Positions 21,801 through 42,425 of a stretch of 64,000 nt of DNA are shown piece after piece. The notes beneath the pieces were generated by a model. It did no database searches. It worked only from the letters and a program-made list of their open reading frames with translations, and had not been told where the DNA came from. How positions within the stretch are numbered: the first letter of the stretch is position 1; each line of letters opens with the position of its first letter. The translations under genes and the position numbers were made by a program. Source of the DNA: Hypholoma sublateritium FD-334 SS-4 (taxonomy: Eukaryota; Basidiomycota; Agaricomycetes; Agaricales; Strophariaceae); assembly GCA_000827495.1 (NCBI GenBank), contig KN817558.1, positions 111,564 to 175,563 on the forward strand, read 5' to 3'.

Positions 21801-23637
21801 GCCGGGCGACATACGAGGCTGTGCGTTAGAGCGTATCGCATTCCGCTTGTTAAACTTCCTGTCTTTCTACTTGGAAATCCTCTACACGGCCGATATGTGA
21901 TCCCGCATCTCTTCTCTCGCATGTAACCTCAACAGTAACACAGCACCTGCATGGCCAACGCATTGCAATTACACAGGAGGTTTTTGGACGAATACGCGTG
22001 TTCTTTCTCTGGTCTGTCTGTCGACGTAATATTCGCATCTCTATGCTCCAATACACGTTTGACTTGCCGTCATGTCAAAAACGCGTGGGACACGCTACGC
22101 TTTTCTACAGGCACCGCGCAGGCCGCTGAATGGCGTACAGCTCAGGCAGTGATGCAATCGTCAACTTGGTCAAAACATATGCACGTTGATATCCTCGGAA
22201 GCTCAAGATTTCGCTAACAGATTCTGTAGGACGCTGGGGTGCCTCCGGCCTGTCTACAGCTGCAGTTGGCGATAATGGAGCTGCTGTGGCTCAGAAATTC
22301 TTGAATTTGGGCAGTCGTACACGATATAATCGCATGGGTCAAGTCGCTGGTGTAGTACGGTATCCGAGATCCGAACCTTGGACAGTGTAACGGACTCCCA
22401 GTGGCTTTGGTGCGACTTAGCTCCATCCTTGCTCTAGTCTGCCCCATGTCTGTGCGGGATAGGCGCCCACCATTTATTCACCCGCGAACTTGGGTCGCGG
22501 ACCCTACTTATATTACGGTAACTACAGCCACACCATCAGGCGGACGCATCTCTGAAACACAGCTCTACAGATAGCCTTCGATTGCCCACGGCCGACGACG
22601 CTGGCAGACTATGGATGCAAAACATATTTCGTCCTGCCCCAATGCTTTCTTCCCAGAAGCTTCTTCGAGAACTGCACACCGCCCCTTCACGCCAGTTTGG
22701 TGGCGGAATGCCGAAACACCAAAAGCATGTTCGAGCACGGCAACATGTCGTCCCGAAAGTTCAGTCTTCAGTACAATTCATCCATGTGACGTAGCAGGGT
22801 CGTACAATCATGCACAACTCTTCCCGTTAAGGCGCCTATATCTGCCTCGATCTTGTCTGCTCTCGTTCACGACGCTCGGTCCTGCATGATTTTTGCACGA
22901 AGTGGATGTTATTCGGCTTAGGTACGTCCCGCGAACATAACTATGCCGTGTTAATTCCATGAACACTAACGGACCTTCTCACGCACAGCTGCTTATCACT
23001 TAATTAACTTATTAAGTGCCTTTGCCGACAGATCTCGGTACATGAGGCAGGGTCTCAGCCGACGCGATGACCTCGTCAGCCTATAGGCTGTAAGCCTCCA
23101 TCCACTCCTTGCTTATCCGAAACGGCGGTCTGCGCACGCTGGTAGGCGTGTAAGACGCCACTATCGGAACGCTGAACATCGGTGCAAGCGATGTTCGATT
23201 TCAGCCTTCGAAATTCTAAGCACATTCTTGGCTGCAATTCACTTCCAACTCACTTCCAACCGGCACCCCAACACATGCACTCGGCCACCGATTGGCCTCG
23301 ACATAATTGGAAACCCTCGCGTGGAGGCGTGTTGCACGCAGCACGGTTGGATGGTGGCGCCGAGGTTGACGGCTGCCCTTGATTTCCACGCCCCATGTAG
23401 GCGGTCGACTCCTCGGGCGATCTGGCTGGTTGGAATGGCGGTATAAAAGCCCGCTCTTTCGAATTCACCGTTGGCCATGTCTCTCTGGTCTTTCATAGCT
23501 CATAGAAGTTGTTCTTTCCTCCGTTGTCTATCTTCTATCATCAGCAATATTCTAATCCAGGTATGTGAAATATCGGTACTCTACCACGGATGGAAAGCTG
23601 ATTTTTTTATCCTTCGACATACCAATGGCAGCCACCG
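18823..23637. other. Long gene-poor region
   Basis: About 4.8 kb without a supported gene. It contains a moderately GC-rich stretch (about 20850-21700, 22500-23400) with overlapping open frames on both strands but no motif, no reverse transcriptase, transposase or terminal repeat. A 93-codon minus-strand frame (20262-20543) is acidic and Ser-rich but otherwise anonymous. The right end carries the promoter of the next gene. Confidence 0.4.
23442..23448 (+). promoter_or_regulatory. TATA box of the helical-repeat gene
   Basis: TATAAAA within GGCGGTATAAAAGCCC, about 190 bp upstream of the ATG at 23638. An upstream ATG at about 23478 opens a short frame, so the leader may contain a uORF or an intron. 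Confidence 0.5.
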
Positions 23638-27888: not shown

Positions 27889-28240
27889 CATGTATAATTT
27901 GGGAGCCACTACGTCTGATCCAGACCGGCAAAGCTGCACCTCTTCCAACGTGCGAATAGATGCAACCAGTGCTCGTCAGCACTGGCGCATCCATCCACAC
28001 GATCGGGCAGCATGCTTTCATAGGAGAGCAGAGCGCTCGTCAGCACCCTGCACCCCCGCGAAAGCCTGATGCAGCAGAAATGCCGTCTCGTCAGACAGCA
28101 TCTCTGCCAGAGCAGTGAAGCAGGCTGCCAAGCGGCTCGTTAGCGGATTAGCGCCCCGTGCCTGGCATGTTGTGGTTGGCCACGGTCGTCGACATGCAGA
28201 TGGAGTCCATTCCGAATGAGTTTGCTGAGTGGGAGCCAGT
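27889..28240 (-). repeat. Duplicated 3' block, copy 1
   Basis: About 350 bp colinear with copy 2 at about 39289-39640. Shared anchors in the same order (plus-strand reading) include GATCCA, CTCTTCC, GTGCGAA, TCCATCC, TAGGAGAGCA, ACCCCC, AAGC..GATGC..CAGA, GCCAGA and four CTCGT[CT]AG octamers. The similarity sits downstream of two paralogous genes, outside their coding regions. Confidence 0.75.
27949..28158 (-). promoter_or_regulatory. Four-hairpin structured 3'-UTR element, copy 1
   Basis: Read as RNA from the minus strand, it forms four adjacent stem-loops with apical CUGACGAG (CUAACGAG in hairpin 4). Hairpin 1 (27949-28001) has about 24 pairs with one bulge at 27964, including the perfect inner stem CCAGTGCT/AGCACTGG. 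Hairpin 2 is 28009-28070: ten inner pairs, then further pairing with a few mismatches. Hairpin 3 (28072-28109) has 17 consecutive pairs, 4 of them G.U. Hairpin 4 (28121-28158) is less regular. Non-Watson-Crick positions are mostly A/C on the plus strand, so they become G.U on the minus strand, the sense strand of the adjacent membrane-protein gene. It starts about 175 nt past that gene's stop codon. Pairing was done by eye; no transcript evidence is available. Confidence 0.7.
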
Positions 28241-28330: not shown

Positions 28331-31300
28331 CTAGTGGTTGCGGCGGCCGCGGCGCTTTTTAGAGCGCTTATCGCTGGGTGGCTTACTTGCCGTCGCCGTT
28401 GTGTATACTGGAATAGCAGAGAGTCCTGCTTCTGGCGATGGCGTCGCTTCCAATTTTTCCGTGGCCGTCGACACAGCCTCTACACGATGCTTGAAAAGGA
28501 GAGAAATATTAGTATATGATTCAACGAAATTAGCGAGAAGCAAAACGGACGTACTGGAAGACTCTTGTCTTCGATGTTGCAAGGGGCATGGATGGACTCC
28601 CCTAACCCGGACTCTCCAGCCTCGACGGGGGTTCGGCGCCGTTGCTGATCGACAGAGGTGTCGTCTTTCATGTCTGTCCGGGTGGCGACCTCGACAATTT
28701 CGACAGCCTCGACAGACTCGACGGAAACGGCAAGCCTGGGCCGTTCCTCTGTGTTGATGTTGTCGGCGATCTGCACCCTGGCGGCCCTTACACGACGGCG
28801 CTGAAGGAAATGAAGAATATCAGACGAAGTGATCGGGGAGACGCAAAGAAGACGTACCGGAAGACCTTTGACACGCCGGTCTTCAACTTTGCTGGGGGCA
28901 TGGATAGAGTCCTCTAACCCGGACCCACCGCTCTCCGTAGGGGACTGAGACCGCTGCTGAGCGACGATCACATCCTCACTTGCCTCTGACGGTGCACGCC
29001 GCTCGACGGACCCAACATCCTTGCCGAAGTTGAAGTTAAAGATGGCTGGCTCGGGCTGCTCCGTAACAACGGATTGCTTGACCTTCACTCTGTCGACCTT
29101 CGCGCGGCGCTGGTAGTAAAGGGAAAAATGTCAGAACATGGTTAAGGAGACATAAAAAAGACGCACTGGAAGCATTCTCTTAGGCCGGCCAAAAAAGTTG
29201 CTAGGGGCATGAATTGAAACCCCAAGCCCGGAATCGTCACCCTCTGCCGAAGCTTGGGGATGCAGTTGGTTGTATGTTGAGGGGGCTTGTTTACTGGACC
29301 CGAAATCCATACCAGAGGCGGCAGCCCCGGGCTGCTGCTCCACGACCTCATCAGCGGCGGCAAGCGAGGCAAGCCTATCAGTCCGCTCGACAATCTCCGC
29401 GAAAATTTCTCGGATGATGTCCTTGATGGGGTTCAATCCGACGGGTGCGAAAGCCTGCTCGACAACCTCTGGCGCAGTCTGTACAGCGAATTCCTGGACG
29501 ACGTCTGAGGTAGCCTGCTGCACACCCTGTTTGACAAGCGCCAGTAATGCCTGACTGGCAACAATCTCAGAGAGCGATGTTTCAGTGGAAGCAGGATAAT
29601 GGAATTCGTAGTTGGGGTCGTCCTCATCATCGTGCTCCATTGGATTGATATCCGCGGCGCCAGGTTCCGTTTCCAGCGAAATGGGCAGTTCCTCCACGAC
29701 TGTGACCAATCCAGCAGATTCCTCCAAATCGATGTCTACCTCCTGTTTACGCTGTAGGGCATCCGTCGTAGCTGTGGTGTCTGTCGGAGCAAGTTCGTCG
29801 ATATTGTTGGCCGCTTCTTGTTCTTCCTGCGGAGTACCAGCCATAGCAGCATTGTCAGCAATGGTGACTTCTGTTGCGATGTAGTTGACGTTGGGGGTGG
29901 CGGCGGTGATTTCGTTGTCGACCTCATCCTGCAAAACATCTGATGCAGCCGTGGGGAAGAGTTCCATGCAACATTCATCAATTGCAGCTGTGGCGGGTTC
30001 GGCGATGATGTCCTGAAGATCATTTTGTTCGCTTGACGCGGCGTTAGGTTCTGTAAAGCTGGGTGTTACTTCAAATGCGGTCATAGGCTCGCTGGGGCAT
30101 TCGTCGTCGATTTTGTGTACATCCTGGGAGGCATCAGTGATTGGAGTGATGGGTTCCATGGAGTCAACGGAGGTGGGTCTTGCGATTTCGTCGTCGACAT
30201 CCTGTGCATCCCGTGACATATTTGGCGCATTCAGCGCGACAAGGGTACTAGGGGTACTAGCGGTGGGATCTGCTTCTTGCGGCACAGTGGTACTAGCATT
30301 GATTTCATCGGCGACAGCTAAGGTGACAGACTCGTCAATATCCTATACATACATCAATCAGTACACTTTACCAAAATAACATTTTGGTGAGAATGAGACT
30401 CACAAGGCGTAAGACGGAATTAGCAAGGTCATCTTGAGAGGCAGGTGTTTCGGCGGGAACGATAAACAGAGAAGCCGTGACCACGCCGGCCCAGTGGCGA
30501 ACCCGTTGAAAAGTGGCCCCAAGGTTTTGCCTGCCGTAATACAGAGCCAAAAGCGAGATACCAACAGCGAAGTCGATGAGTGGATATGTAATCCATCCGA
30601 TGCGTGCATTCTCAACTGGCTGTGCGAACCTCTGCATCGCCTCTTGCGCCGATGGGGGGAGGTAGACCTCGATGATTCCAGGCGTATCATTGGTGCTGTT
30701 GTCGGGATAGTCGAAGTACGTGTTGTCGAGGGAATCTGGGGCGGAACCTACAAGACACATGTCCAGTATATTGGGCAGGGGGATTGTCTGGGGTGAGATA
30801 TTCTCCAGGAATGCAGGCGATGTCTTGCTGTGCTTGTTGTCCATCGGGGCTAATTGTGTAGGGTCATGCAAAGGCACAAGTTCGAGAGCGACGACGAGGT
30901 TGGAGAGTCCTTGTAGACCATTATCGAGCAAATAAACGAGCGTGTCAGGCTCGCGAGCGACGATGTCGTTGTCTCTGCTGGCGGTATTTTTCACGGCAGA
31001 GCTAGCAAATGAACGCTCGACTTGTGCAGCACTACGACGGGCACCGATCTTCTTGAATGCGGCGGCTATCGCAAAAGCAATTGCGAGGATGCAGTTGAGA
31101 AAGTAGAAGTAGAAGTTTTTGCCGCCGTTGTTGTCTATACTGGAGTTGGTGCCCGAGGGAGCAGGGGGCGGAGAGCCACCCCCGCCGCCGGTCTGATACT
31201 CAAAGATCGCATCGTCATCTGTAAAACGTGTCAGAGAGAAGTTAGGAACTACGCCAAACGGATCACGCACCTTCCTCGTCCTGTACCATGTCTGAGTCGT

Positions 31301-31905
31301 CTGCCTCGTTTTGCTCGCCTCCGGATGAAGGGCCTTGATCGCCTAAAAATAGAGCAAATTGCCACCATCAGATAATGCAGAAAAGTGCAAAGGTAAGTCG
31401 ACCAACCCGCGCCGCCTGTTTCTTCGCCAATCGAGTTGTCTGTGTCGTATTCGTCGTCGAAACTGTCGTCTTGGGGGATGCCGGGGGCCTCGGAGTCGCC
31501 TTGCCCAGCGCCGCTACCAACAAGGCCAACGCCAGCCATACCAGCCGCGGCGCACATCGCCATGGCGCACAGAGCTCCATTCCCGCCGCGTGGGGCCCCC
31601 GCGCTGCTGCCTGTGGTCCGTGTGTAGATATATCGTCCGTGGCAAGGCCTGCTAGGCTTGTGGTGGGGAGTGGCACCGAGTGGCACATTGCGCCGGAGGG
31701 TGAAGATCTCGTACCCAAGGGCGATGGCGGGGACGGCAGCCGCGACGATGCTTGCGCCGCCCGCAATGCCTGTGATAGTAGGGGTACGGCCCTTGTTTTC
31801 GTGTGCATCGCCGCCGCCGAGAGCTAGAAAGCTGGTGGTTATGGCGAGTGCGGCGGCGGAAATACTGCCGCCGCTAGTAAGAGAGCCCCAGAAGGGGATA
31901 ATCAT
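28331..31905 (-). CDS. Multi-pass membrane protein with Arg-rich tail, paralog 1 (unknown function)
   Basis: I do not recognise the family. Seven exons (31407-31905, 31271-31342, 30404-31218, 29167-30342, 28858-29109, 28555-28800, 28331-28489) join in frame to 1,072 residues. Exon 1 (MIIPFWGSLTSGGSIS) has three hydrophobic stretches, including ASIVAAAVPAIALGYEIF and LCAMAMCAAAGMAGVGL. Exon 2 is acidic. Exon 3 has a Gly/Pro stretch, a membrane segment (LNCILAIAFAIAAAF), a polar domain of about 180 residues, then two more hydrophobic segments. Exon 4 encodes a 390-residue acidic, probably disordered region. Exons 4, 5 and 6 each end in a repeat, SGL-x-x-SIHAP ... LP. The tail is KRSKKRRGRRNH. 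The paralog at 39714-42425 shares exon 1-3 organisation, intron phases and the tail. A structured RNA block follows the stop codon. Confidence 0.8.
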
Positions 31906-35364: not shown

Positions 35365-36618
35365 TCACTTTTCGAACGACAGCACTTTGAACCTAAAATG
35401 AAACGACGAGATATTCGACAGCGCCTGTAATGAATAGCCCATCTTCCTACGAAATTCTGTAACCGAGTTCACCCGCTTCCCATTCGCCACGCGCACCCTC
35501 TTGTGCACCGTGAGATCTATTGTAACGCGGCGCAGGTCGCGGTACTCTGTCCGCAGGAGTGTGACGGCGAGTCGCGTCCAGATCGCAGCGCTGTACACCG
35601 CCAGCAAGCCAGCACCGGAAGTCTGCTGCGGAAATTGAATGATCAGCTCGAGCCATGCGAGTTGACTGCGCTGCGTGACGGCTTCTAGGAGGTCGCAGAA
35701 GCCCGTGAGCTCGCGCCCCACCGTGCCGTACGAGAGCCGCACGGACAGCTTCCGCAGCGCGGGCAGGCGCCCGAGGTCGATTGGACAAGGGAACATCGGA
35801 GGCCGCCCGAGGGGGTCTACGGACGACGGGCTGCCGTTAATATGGGAGCACCGCGGATAAGAAGGGGCGCACGCACCAACGTCCGCGCAGCAGCGCCATT
35901 TGATCAACTTGAGATGCGCCGAATGTGCCTTCATCAGCTCCCACGCCGATTCGGTGTTGTGCAGCGAAAGGGTGCGTAAGTTCAGGTAACACAACCGTGA
36001 GTTCGCAAACGGGGCGGCGGCGGAGGGGTATAAGGCGGTTGTAATATTGTTGAGATAAAGGTGCCGCACAGAGACGTCGAGCGCGCAGGTGGGAATGTCC
36101 CCGATATTGGATAAAGTTAGACTCGCAAGAACCGGCTGGCTGAAGAGCTTCGCGAGCGACGTGGCCAGCTCGCCACTGAGCTGGCCCCACCGCAAGTACC
36201 CCACCTCGCAGCCGAATACGCATTCCTGCACACCCGTGAGCTTGTCGATAAGCCGCGGCAGAGCGGCTTGCTGCGTTATCCATTGCGAGTCGTATATCGG
36301 ATACGAGTCGATAATTTCAAAACGCCTGACGAATGCACCGGCGTCGGGGTCCCGTCTGAACATCTCATATAGACCATGAATGCGCCGCGCAACGTTGTGG
36401 ATAAAAATGGGGCTAGGGCATATTCGCAATCTTAGGGTAATAGAGGCAAAAAGGTTGGTGCGTGCGCGTCGGAAGTATCGATGGGAAAGAAGGGAGCAAG
36501 CGCGCAAGGTAGTCCAATCTCTAGTAGCCCCAAGAAAGTCAAATATAAGGAAAATGAGCTCCGGTGGGAGGGTCGGATGCCTAAAAGCAACGATAGAGGT
36601 TTGAGGACTAGTGGCCAT
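35365..36618 (-). CDS. F-box-like protein with leucine-rich strands
   Basis: A single-exon protein of 417 residues. The N-terminus has an F-box-like helix pair, HPTLPPELIFLIFDFLGA, followed by TLRACSLLSHRYFRRA, a form typical of Agaricomycete F-box proteins (substrate receptors for SCF ubiquitin ligases). The rest alternates short strands and leucines in a loose leucine-rich-repeat pattern (VLASLTLSNIG, VRHLYLNNI, LRTLSLHNTESAWELM, LRKLSVRLS). There is no premature stop, unlike the F-box gene at 12011. The target is unknown. Confidence 0.85.
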   Translation of the reverse strand: MATSPQTSIVAFRHPTLPPELIFLIFDFLGATRDWTTLRACSLLSHRYFRRARTNLFASITLRLRICPSPIFIHNVARRIHGLYEMFRRDPDAGAFVRRFEIIDSYPIYDSQWITQQAALPRLIDKLTGVQECVFGCEVGYLRWGQLSGELATSLAKLFSQPVLASLTLSNIGDIPTCALDVSVRHLYLNNITTALYPSAAAPFANSRLCYLNLRTLSLHNTESAWELMKAHSAHLKLIKWRCCADVGACAPSYPRCSHINGSPSSVDPLGRPPMFPCPIDLGRLPALRKLSVRLSYGTVGRELTGFCDLLEAVTQRSQLAWLELIIQFPQQTSGAGLLAVYSAAIWTRLAVTLLRTEYRDLRRVTIDLTVHKRVRVANGKRVNSVTEFRRKMGYSLQALSNISSFHFRFKVLSFEK

Positions 36619-39288: not shown

Positions 39289-39640
39289 TGCGGGATGGTG
39301 GCGACCTTGGAGCGGATCCACAACGGACGGTCGGGCCTCTTCCCCGAAGTGCGAACGAACGCAGCAAGCCCTCGTCAGGGCCGCCACGTCCATCCGCGCC
39401 ATCGGACACCGCACTTCCGTAGGAGAGCAAGGACACTCGTCAGTGCCCTCACCCCCCGTGGAAGCACGATGCGACAGAGATGTCATCTCGTCAGACGACA
39501 TCCCCGCCAGAAGAGGAGGGCCACCAGCCGGCTCGTCAGCCTGCTAAGGCCCCCATACCCGACGTCGTTGGGATCGATCGACAGCGGCCGCCAAATGCAA
39601 GATCGCGTCCATCCAATGTGCCGGGAGATATTCAAGCCAA
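39289..39640 (-). repeat. Duplicated 3' block, copy 2
   Basis: Colinear partner of copy 1 at about 27889-28240, with the same anchor words in the same order. The four CTCGTCAG octamers are spaced 65, 51 and 45 nt, against 64, 51 and 49 nt in copy 1. Several indels of one or two bases change the coding frame between copies, so the conservation does not reflect a protein. Confidence 0.75.
39351..39554 (-). promoter_or_regulatory. Four-hairpin structured 3'-UTR element, copy 2
   Basis: Same architecture as copy 1, read on the minus strand, with apical CUGACGAG in all four. Hairpin 1 (39351-39397) has a bulge at 39366, the same place as in copy 1, and about 15 contiguous pairs below it. Hairpin 2 is about 39408-39470. 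Hairpin 3 (39472-39509) has 17 consecutive pairs, 5 of them G.U, exactly the register of copy 1. Hairpin 4 is 39516-39554. Stem sequences differ from copy 1 while pairing is kept; in hairpin 3, C-G at 28083/28098 becomes T-A at 39483/39498. It starts about 160 nt past the stop codon of paralog 2. Confidence 0.7.
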
Positions 39641-39713: not shown

Positions 39714-42425
39714 TCAAATGTGCGTAGAGGGACCAGCCGCGTCGACAGTGGACTGATCGCGATTTTGATTTTGATTTTTGCGAGTGTGACTGCGACGCCC
39801 GCCTCGACGCTTTTTGTTGCCAGTGCGCGATTGGTAGACCGGGATGCTGAATGTCTCCGGTTCCTCCACCTTGTCCTCCACTTCGGGTACACTCGCAGCG
39901 CAGGCTACTTTCGGAGCGAAAGCAACGGCGCGAGCGCTCATCGAGGGGGGAAAAGACTTGGATACCTGAGATGCGAAGTAGATTTTGTCAGATGATTCCA
40001 AAGAAGATCATAGAATAATACGACGTACGGAGATGATTTCGACTACCTGATCTTCGTTCACGACCGAGGACAGGTGGTTAGGAGCAGAAACAGAGGATTG
40101 CAAAGTCGGAGGGGTAGCATCTGCGGTTTGCTTGACATCTACGGCGATGACTTGATCTGTGACTTCGACTGCGGCTTGCTCGGCGACGTCCTCGACGAGT
40201 GGCTTGACGAACTGCTCGATGACTGGCTCGGAGACCTGTTTGATGGCTAGCTCGACGATCTGCTCGATGGCGTCCTCGGCAACGGGCTCAACAACTTGCT
40301 CGACGATCTCCACGGTCCGTTCGGTAACCTGCTTGGCGATCTGCTCGATGTCCTGCTCGATGTCCTGCTCGATGACTGGCTTGACTACCTGCTCGATGGC
40401 GTCCTCCACGACAGGCTTGGAAACAGGCTCGATGACCTGCTCGTCCGACTCGATGGCGTCCTTGACGACCGGCTCGACAACCTCCTCGACAACGTATTCC
40501 GCGGCCTCCTCAATACCGACGGCCTCAGCTACGGGTTCTTCAGTGGTAGACGTTCCGATATGAATAAGTTCCGAGCGTTCCTCGTCAGAGTCGTCGAAAT
40601 GGCCGCTGTCCGTTGCGTATATGTCCGTTGTGCTGGAGTCCTCTTCTCGAGACACCACTATATCGCCGTCGTTGTTGACCTTCAGTGCGGGCTGCGGTGT
40701 ATGGTTAACACTGCCGATCAACCACGAAAATCAAAGTGCGACTCACCAGGCGCGGAATGTACTGGGCGAGGCCACGAGGGCGGGCCCACTTCTCCACGAC
40801 AGGTGTGAGCAATGTAAAGAGAGACACCGCGAGGAATAACCGAAGTCGGTTCCAGTAGCTCCTGAGCTTGTGACTAACGTGGTACAGCGCGAGGAACACA
40901 GCACCCGCAGCCAGCTTCACCTCCGTGGTCCACTCCTTGCGAACGTCCTCAGTGGCCGACGCAAACATCTGACGCGCAGCATTCGGAGCCGAGTCCTGGA
41001 AAAAGACAACAGTGGGCACAGTCTCGTCGAGTCTATCGTTGACAGTGCATTCCCAGTTGTCCCAGGTGGCCAGGGTCGGAACGGAGAGGTTGTCGATCGT
41101 ATCCGCAAAGCACACGTCGAGAGATGATCGCTGGCGATTAACCATTGACACTATGCTCTCCGTGAATGGAAAGGGCACCTCGCCGGCGTTGCGGTTGTAG
41201 GCTAGGACCGCATCCGAAAGAGAGCACACATCGGCGGGCAAGCCTTCGCGAAGAGGTGAAACAAGTTGCGAAACAGTCAAGAGTTGGTTGAAGTTGTCCG
41301 TGGGGTTTGAAGACGTTGCATTGTCGGAAGGTGGAAGTTGAAGTGTAGCCAAAAGCAAACTCGTGAGCTCCTCCAGCGACAAATGACTACCGGGTAGCCG
41401 AGCGTGTTCCTTGGATTGATACGGAGAGATGTCGCTACGTTCCCAGTCGACAGATATAGACTGCTGGTCCACAGTGTTGGCGTCGTCAGAGGTAGGTATG
41501 TCCGAGATGCGACGATCAGAGAGTTCCTCGAGAGCAGTTGATTTCCTGAAAGCGGCCAGTCTATCGCGAGCACCTAGTTTTCTGAGAGTAACCAGCTTCT
41601 TGAGAGCAGCAAGAACAGTAAGAGCGACCAAGAGAGCCTTCCAGTCTAGACCATATATAGCGTATCCGTTGTTGTCGTCTTCCAGACCCGAATCAGAACC
41701 CGGGGGAGGGGGAGGGGGAGGATCACCCCCAACGGCTTCCTCGAGAAGATCGGAGGGCGCCACGCCTGGTGGAAGTTTGAGTAAGAGAAGTGACACCGAA
41801 GCTGACGGTTGAGCACACCTTGTTCAACCTCAGCGCTGGCTGGATCATTCGACTCGCCTCCAGGATCAGATGATTCCTCGCCTAAGAAAAAAAGAACGAA
41901 ACGTTAGGTGGATGGATAAATGCTGGTATGTATTAGCTAACCTCCGCTGCCCGTGCCTTCGCCTTCGACCGCGTCGTTCTGCACCCCATCCTCGCCGCTT
42001 TCCTGAGCATCGGCAGAAGAACCGCCTTCGCCAGAACCACCCAGAGCGAGAGCAGCCCCAACGACAGCGGCAGTGGCGCACAACACCGTGCCGTACAGGG
42101 CGCCGTTCTTTGCCTCGTCGCCGCCTTTAGTCTTTGTGGGCTTAGCACCACTAGGACGGGTCTTCGATGGATTGGGGCGGATCCGTATACGACGGAAAGC
42201 ACTGGCGACAGGCTGTTTCTTCCTGTAAGCGAGGATCCCTTGAGCGATGGCGGGTGCGACCGTGGCGATGCCGGTGGCACCAGCGATAAAGGCGAGGGTA
42301 CCGCGGCGGTTCTCGATGGAGGTCTTGTCGCCGGAACCGAAAGCGAGAAGGCCCGCGGTAAAGGCGAGCTTGAGGATGGAGGTTGGACCCCCGCTCCCCG
42401 AAAAGTCTCCGATGGGGACTATCAT
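39714..42425 (-). CDS. Multi-pass membrane protein with Arg-rich tail, paralog 2 (unknown function)
   Basis: Five exons (41942-42425, 41819-41881, 40747-41801, 40029-40691, 39714-39965) join in frame to 838 residues. Exon 1 (MIVPIGDFSGSGGPTSILK) matches paralog 1 in layout: LAFIAGATGIATVAPAIAQG and NGALYGTVLCATAAVVGAAL align with its hydrophobic stretches. Exon 2 is acidic. Exon 3 has a Gly/Pro stretch, WKALLVALTVLAALKKL, a polar domain, then VKLAAGAVFLALYH and LRLFLAVSLFTLLTPVV. Exon 4 is extremely rich in Glu, Val and Ile, in imperfect repeats such as VEQVVEPVAEDAIEQ. The tail is FSIPVYQSRTGNKKRRGGRR, close to paralog 1 IPVY..KKRRGRR, then an Asn/Gln/Arg extension. Introns 1, 2 and 3 have the same phase as in paralog 1. 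Exons 5 and 6 of paralog 1 have no counterpart. Function is unknown. Confidence 0.8.

Follow-up and report, generated by a model that had tools for sequence, protein, structure and literature searches.

The window, that is, the whole 64-kb stretch of DNA that was analysed, holds two intron-bearing paralogous genes, A and B, whose sense strand is the minus strand (Table 1). Their introns, as read from the sequence, suggest a eukaryote, presumably a fungus. Downstream of the stop codon of each lies a block of four hairpins on the gene sense strand, with nearly the same tip on each hairpin, and this arrangement recurs in a third copy, C, found elsewhere in the genome. Copy A is copy 1 of the initial annotation, and copy B, the block under study, is its copy 2. 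The RNA structure predicted for the block is supported with respect to strand and conservation, and is considered near certain.

Inspected by eye, the open frames of genes A and B predict proteins with several hydrophobic segments and a run of prolines, as well as one acidic segment and, close to the C terminus, one basic segment. The genes that carry the block are predicted to form a small orphan family of multi-pass membrane proteins. The basic stretches, at or near the terminus, read KKRRGRR in A, KKRRGGRR in B, RKQRRRR in C, and GRRHRKRPNKK in D, a gene followed by a further hairpin array described below. None of the ten frames compared with Pfam (genes A and B supplied six of them, gene D one, and other genes of the window the remaining three, with none from C) gave a match at the cut-off. 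Protein searches with exon frames, in which about 8000 candidates out of 5.8 billion were scored each time, recovered P0001, P0002, and P0003 as relatives of the B/C exon and P0004 as a relative of D; as these four alone were recovered, relatives are few among the candidates scored. By eye P0003 is closer to gene C than to gene B, and the split between B and C may be older than this species. In gene B the basic tail is preceded by a long repetitive region (40014-40730) in which V, E, I, and P abound, and a repetitive acidic stretch is also present in gene D. Between the two paralogs, a frame at 35368-36618 weakly resembles an F-box (E 0.0022, under the curated cut-off).

Table 1. Coordinates of the paralogous genes and of the hairpin blocks in the window
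Feature	Position	Strand	Remarks
Paralog gene A, with introns	28331..31905	-	Ends inferred from open frames; 36-37% identity to gene B in the first exon frame
Paralog gene B, with introns	39714..42425	-	Ends inferred from open frames; homologs P0001, P0002
Copy B, whole block, 4 hairpins	39344..39554	-	z -10.3 for 39330-39570; conserved with A and C
Copy B, hairpin 4, first in transcript	39517..39554	-	Tip 39532-39539 = CUGACGAG; helix 2: 92.7% of cells paired, 2 double-change pairs
Copy B, hairpin 3	39472..39509	-	Tip 39487-39494; outermost U-G pair extra to consensus; helix 3: 16 pairs, 100% of cells paired, 3 double-change pairs
Copy B, hairpin 2	39406..39472	-	Tip 39436-39443; helices 4 and 5: 91.2% and 95.8% of cells paired, 5 double-change pairs
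Copy B, hairpin 1, last in transcript	39344..39405	-	Tip 39371-39378; helix 6: 28 pairs, 96.4% of cells paired, 4 double-change pairs
Copy B, closing helix around hairpins 3-2-1	3' arm 39335..39343; 5' arm ~39509-39516	-	Closes a three-hairpin junction when B, A, or C is folded as a single sequence
Copy A, whole block	27945..28157	-	z -8.4 for 27930-28175; 69.6% identical to B over 214 columns
Copy A, hairpin 4	28121-28157	-	
Copy A, hairpin 3	28072-28109	-	
Copy A, hairpin 2	28007-28072	-	
Copy A, hairpin 1	27945-28006	-	

Layout, folding and strand of the blocks

The distance from stop codon to block is 173 nt in A, 159 nt in B, about 150 nt in C, and about 122 nt in D, where the stop is an inferred one; the distances in A and B, initially described as the same, are therefore alike rather than identical. 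The tip spacings given in the initial annotation, 65/51/45 for copy B and 64/51/49 for copy A, were verified in the sequence. Its description of hairpin 3 as 38 nt with 17 pairs holds for A and B if the outer U-G pair, absent in C, is counted, and gives way to 36 nt and 16 pairs in the consensus of A, B, and C. The bulge of hairpin 1, said to lie at the same place in both copies, does so in the alignment consensus and not in the single-sequence folds, where it follows 8 (A), 5 (B), or 4 (C) pairs. Hairpin 4 of copy A is weaker and has the tip CUAACGAG, and the closing helix around hairpins 3-2-1 was not retained as a conserved helix in the A/B/C consensus.

Predicted folding on the minus strand is far stronger than that of shuffled sequence, with -161 kcal/mol for copy B (39330-39570) against -104 for its shuffles (z -10.3), and -139 kcal/mol for copy A (27930-28175) against -97 (z -8.4), whereas the plus-strand folds reach z values of -3.8 (B) and -1.75 (A). 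For the other arrays z is -7.1 (C) and -9.9 (D). When both strands of the 64 kb were scanned in 1160 segments of 220 nt, with 15 shuffles each, those over the two blocks ranked first and second by energy, gaining -46 and -34 kcal/mol against -17 kcal/mol for the segment in third place. This third-best segment, 22991-23210 on the plus strand (z -4.6), holds a lone CTGACGAG on the minus strand at 23072-23079. Among 263 pair cells there are 61 G-U, which would be A-C on the opposite strand, and 6 A-C, which would there turn into G-U. It is because of this excess of G-U over A-C, and of the much better folding of the minus strand, that the latter, left unnamed in the initial annotation, is taken as the structured strand; a plus-strand RNA is disfavoured on account of its weaker folds and the same asymmetry. 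A peptide encoded within the block was likewise rejected, as substitutions show no codon periodicity and in copies A, B, and C a stop interrupts all three frames of the sense strand; the indels, which had been brought forward as an argument against a conserved peptide, are of 1, 1, 1, and 4 nt, not in threes, and bear that argument out.

Covariation and conservation of the tips

Covariation was assessed between copies within one genome, in an alignment of copies A, B, and C with a consensus of 88 pairs, and in an alignment by tips of 15 single hairpins (12 from A-C and three from D, the AAU-loop hairpin of D being excluded). The shuffles used for comparison ignore the kinship of the copies and are hence lenient, and the number out of 500 that reached the observed value, given in brackets here and below, is not a probability: in the three-copy alignment standard pairs occupy 95.4% of cells against 91.5% in shuffles (0/500), changes on both sides affect 14 of the 88 pairs against a shuffle mean of 7.5 (0/500), and further pair types, at 54 against 50.5 (66/500), show no excess. 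Sliding the partners by 1-3 columns leaves only 46-50% of cells paired. Since the consensus structure was derived from these three sequences themselves, the paired-cell figure is favoured, and the double changes are the stronger evidence. Among the 15 single hairpins, 88% of cells pair, compared with 57.6% in shuffles and 37-54% after sliding, and double-change cells number 49 against 18.4 (0/500); counted by pair, 8 of 10 have at least one double change, which is no different from shuffles (7.4, 273/500).

The double compensatory change first reported for the two copies, C-G at 28083/28098 in A against T-A at 39483/39498 in B, is present in the sequence. The claim built on it, that two-sequence covariation marks a functional RNA structure, is strengthened by the newly found copy C, which keeps the fold, with 14 double-change pairs; further homologs were checked in the form of paralogs, and the pattern of non-compensatory stem changes that would speak against the claim was not found there.

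Each tip consists of a GACG tetraloop on a U-A and then a C-G pair, with the consensus C-U-[GACG]-A-G. The octamer CUGACGAG occurs in 10 of the 12 tips of A-C, and ACG is kept in all 12, the two deviating tips having changed the letter before ACG (CUAACGAG) or the letter after it (CUGACGGG). A comparison of divergence in tips and stems, proposed at the outset, separates the two clearly: the tip octamers are 97% (AB), 94% (AC), and 97% (BC) identical, the stems 66%, 62%, and 70%, and the other unpaired columns 62%, 45%, and 48%, in the same order. In the 15 hairpins the two pairs next to the loop are near-invariant (C-G in 15/15, U-A in 14/15, where three of the 15 are D tips chosen by their octamer), and the third pair out from the loop takes all four Watson-Crick types. 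As array D was located via its octamer, its tips do not count towards tip conservation. Within the 64-kb window CTGACGAG occurs nine times, against 2.4 expected, and seven of the nine lie inside the two blocks.

When genes with their flanks were compared pairwise as DNA, the best match was the block in each pair: 70% over 214 for A and B, 65% over 215 for A and C, where it was the sole match, and 72% over 243 for B and C. As the top DNA match in all three pairs, the block has been retained longer than the coding sequence in these genes, and it is unusual for a block in the 3' flank to be conserved above the coding sequence that precedes it. The same comparison of D with A, B, or C yielded no match in the block.

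Further arrays in the genome and in other collections

The genome searched is a 46-Mb assembly of 281 contigs. A DNA search with block B located copy C 3' of the stop of a third paralog on contig C28, with 72% identity across 231 positions of the query. Array D, on contig C40, combines three GACG tips with a fourth hairpin that has an AAU loop, and has a gene of like architecture 5' of it. The AAU-loop hairpin, of 11 pairs, lies where a GACG tip would be (L013:4853-4880). At the base of the first hairpin of D there is an 18-G run (L013:4794-4811), partly paired with C-rich letters, which may reflect an assembly-length artefact or form a G-rich element; some 3 kb past the array follows a long run of N (L013:8034-9901), either a gap or a withheld stretch. 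The likeness of D to A-C resides in its architecture and in a poorly aligned first exon (28%); at the protein level, profile comparison gave a probability of 32% over 18 columns, and the protein search of the genome with D matched D alone.

DNA searches of the genome with B, C, and D returned only B, C, or the query itself, and since A was missed although 70% identical to B, such a search evidently overlooks copies. In searches by tip pattern, pairs of CTGACGAG 30-60 nt apart occur at eight places, seven in A, B, and C and one on C40 (one place in the control, with the pattern backwards), pairs 61-91 nt apart at four places (control 1), and CTAACGAG before CTGACGAG at one place (control 0). 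All tip-pair places fall in A-D except one on contig C17, which was rejected because its tips form no hairpins (4 and 3 of 6 pairs). The motif GCTGACGAGC with outer ends other than A occurs at 94 sites against 59 for the control, and six of these belong to the family, five pairing at 6-7 of seven flanking positions and one at 5; of the 88 other sites none reaches 6 paired flanks (about 1 expected by shuffling) and eight reach 5 (6.1 expected). Two weak protein matches were followed up as well: that on C11 (E 0.25) looks like chance and has no tip hairpin in its 3.2-kb locus, and a tip scan of the locus on C12 (E 4.5) found none.

In Rfam, no match at the gathering score was obtained in the window, which covers A, and no family for B, C, or D up to E 10, where only sub-threshold matches were seen; 12 of these 15 are microRNA models, all far below their cut-offs, and none is a retroviral family. 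Rfam contains a model for the gammaretroviral core encapsidation signal and one for the guanidine-II riboswitch, and neither was matched in these scans. In open-licence literature, no title or abstract among the matches listed describes a fungal or cellular GACG array. The block matches no family in the catalogues searched; its stems, altered letter by letter and yet still paired, and its almost unchanged tips point to a real RNA control element.

Triple-tip patterns were encountered in 53 stretches of viral contigs and in at least 118 of prokaryote genomes (80 loci among the matches listed). The 133 viral and prokaryote loci, the latter again among the matches listed, contain 292 triples, 14 of which have three stems with at least 5 of 6 pairs. 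These 14 fall in five loci among the matches listed, with a lowest stem identity of 100% in three, 83% in L046, and 67% in L079; the spacing is 53-54 nt in the four loci other than L046. All five were set aside as coding or CRISPR-like repeats, a judgement made from spacing and stem identity rather than annotation. None of the 133 loci (for prokaryotes, among the matches listed) holds an array whose stems diverge as much as in A and B, an absence that says little as the collections are non-fungal. L079 is as uniform as array D (both 67%), so stem identity alone does not separate D from such loci; A and B, at 0-50%, clearly differ.

Possible roles of the GACG tips

By analogy with known kissing loops, it is tentatively proposed that the block is a 3'-UTR element whose tips work by loop-loop (kissing) contact within or between the mRNAs of the family. 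We infer that it lies in the mature mRNA and that its loops kiss, and the same applies to any influence on the localisation, stability, or translation of the mRNA. The stems would hold the tips outward at near-fixed spacing, and the tips would touch via the CG of the GACG loop, which is self-complementary. Within one mRNA, contacts among the hairpins could fold the array into a compact domain, and contacts between family mRNAs could hold these in one particle, much as oskar and bicoid mRNAs are held by contacts in their 3' UTRs.

In gammaretroviruses, SL-C and SL-D are neighbouring GACG-tetraloop hairpins whose loop is highly conserved as well (PMC5874298, PMC7357161), and in murine leukemia virus their loop-loop contacts add to dimer stability (PMC5874298). 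The isolated GACG hairpin dimerizes through just two pairs (C-G and G-C), flanked on either side by a stacked adenosine (PMC7357161). Heterodimers of retroviral transcripts with GACG loops have been reported, partly as personal observations, and the core dimer motif of murine leukemia virus is said not to include the GACG loops (PMC516450). The block shares with these viruses the presence of at least two neighbouring GACG hairpins, 11 of the 12 tips of A-C being GACG and one AACG; however, in retroviral genomes the pair belongs to the 5' region and stands beside palindromic hairpins, whereas the block has four such hairpins in the 3' flank of intron-bearing genes, about 122-173 nt past the stop. 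Guanidine-II (mini-ykkC) riboswitches have tandem hairpins with ACGR loops, which kiss similarly via CG (PMC7357161), and the 15 aligned tips of the block read ACG followed by A or G. In the block, however, ACGR is flanked by a G on either side (by A and G in one tip), letters that cannot pair, so that ACGR sits on a closing pair in none of the 15 tips, and the block lies 3' of its gene. Its loops may work like the retroviral ones, and the block is best filed under neither the gammaretroviral signal nor guanidine-II.

Cellular 3' UTRs offer two further parallels. The self-complementary loop of oskar, located in the 3' UTR (PMC7357161), drives mRNA dimerization and granule assembly through a proposed mRNA-mRNA contact, a two-letter disrupting change impairs assembly, and the kiss is synergistic with the protein Bruno (PMC11567897). 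The loop of oskar is a six-letter palindrome, unlike the four loops of the block with their two-letter CG palindrome, and no relation in sequence is claimed; the block, which follows the stop on the sense strand, would occupy a 3' UTR as well. Domain III of the bicoid 3' UTR dimerizes, and in isolation multimerizes, in vitro (PMC7357161); its pairing is between a loop and a complementary bulge, over six pairs, unlike the loop-loop contact proposed here.

The retention of ACG in all 12 tips of A-C fits a kiss through CG with a stacked A. Against kissing stand the weakness of two base pairs on their own and the near-invariance of the loop-adjacent pairs, which a protein reader would explain as well or better, and array D, with three GACG tips and one AAU loop, indicates that strict loop pairing is not general. 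Kissing is ranked first, and nearly as likely is that a single RNA-binding protein reads the CUGACGAG tip, four tips giving the high avidity with which it might localise, repress, or stabilise the mRNA; the two can hold at once. Conservation that stops sharply at the octamer, that is, at the loop and two pairs, with the next pair varying freely, is what a protein reader would leave, and the Arg/Lys-rich stretches at or near the C terminus of the A, B, C, and D frames allow for a special case in which the family's own basic stretch binds its own mRNA. Yet these stretches may have to do with membrane topology or sorting, the two tip variants that are tolerated retain the ACG that a kiss would require, and we know of no protein that reads the octamer.

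Other explanations fare worse. A purely structural 3' element, such as an exonuclease block or an aid to 3' end formation whose tips merely stabilise the hairpins, would suit the very stable predicted stems and the position soon after the stop, but is improbable, as stability alone would not hold the octamer at 94-97% identity while the stems drift to 62-70%. That the hairpins are small-RNA (microRNA-like) precursors is more doubtful still: they lie on the sense strand, and microRNA models dominate the sub-threshold Rfam matches, but microRNA precursors have a conserved arm and a variable loop, the opposite of the conserved tip and variable arms found here, and stems free of interruptions are short, hairpin 3 having 16-17 pairs. 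Hardly credible is a repeat or palindrome at the DNA level, from tandem duplication or the end of a mobile element and devoid of RNA function. The same octamer does recur at near-regular spacing, but when three tips each are compared within A and within B, the surrounding stem letters agree at only 0-50%, far from the near-identical units of CRISPR or tandem repeats, the case being less clear in D at 67%; moreover, G-U pairs and fold quality pick out one strand, and there is covariation.

An extension of the kissing proposal, a cellular code by which paralogous mRNAs with four-hairpin GACG arrays, of a type seen at the sites that pair retroviral genomes, would recognise each other and join one particle, is regarded as unlikely. 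If the loops do kiss, the block would represent a cellular, multivalent use of a contact from retroviral leaders, and mRNA-mRNA self-recognition would be testable by two-letter loop mutants. If instead a protein reads the octamer, the block would offer a new RNA-protein tethering site.
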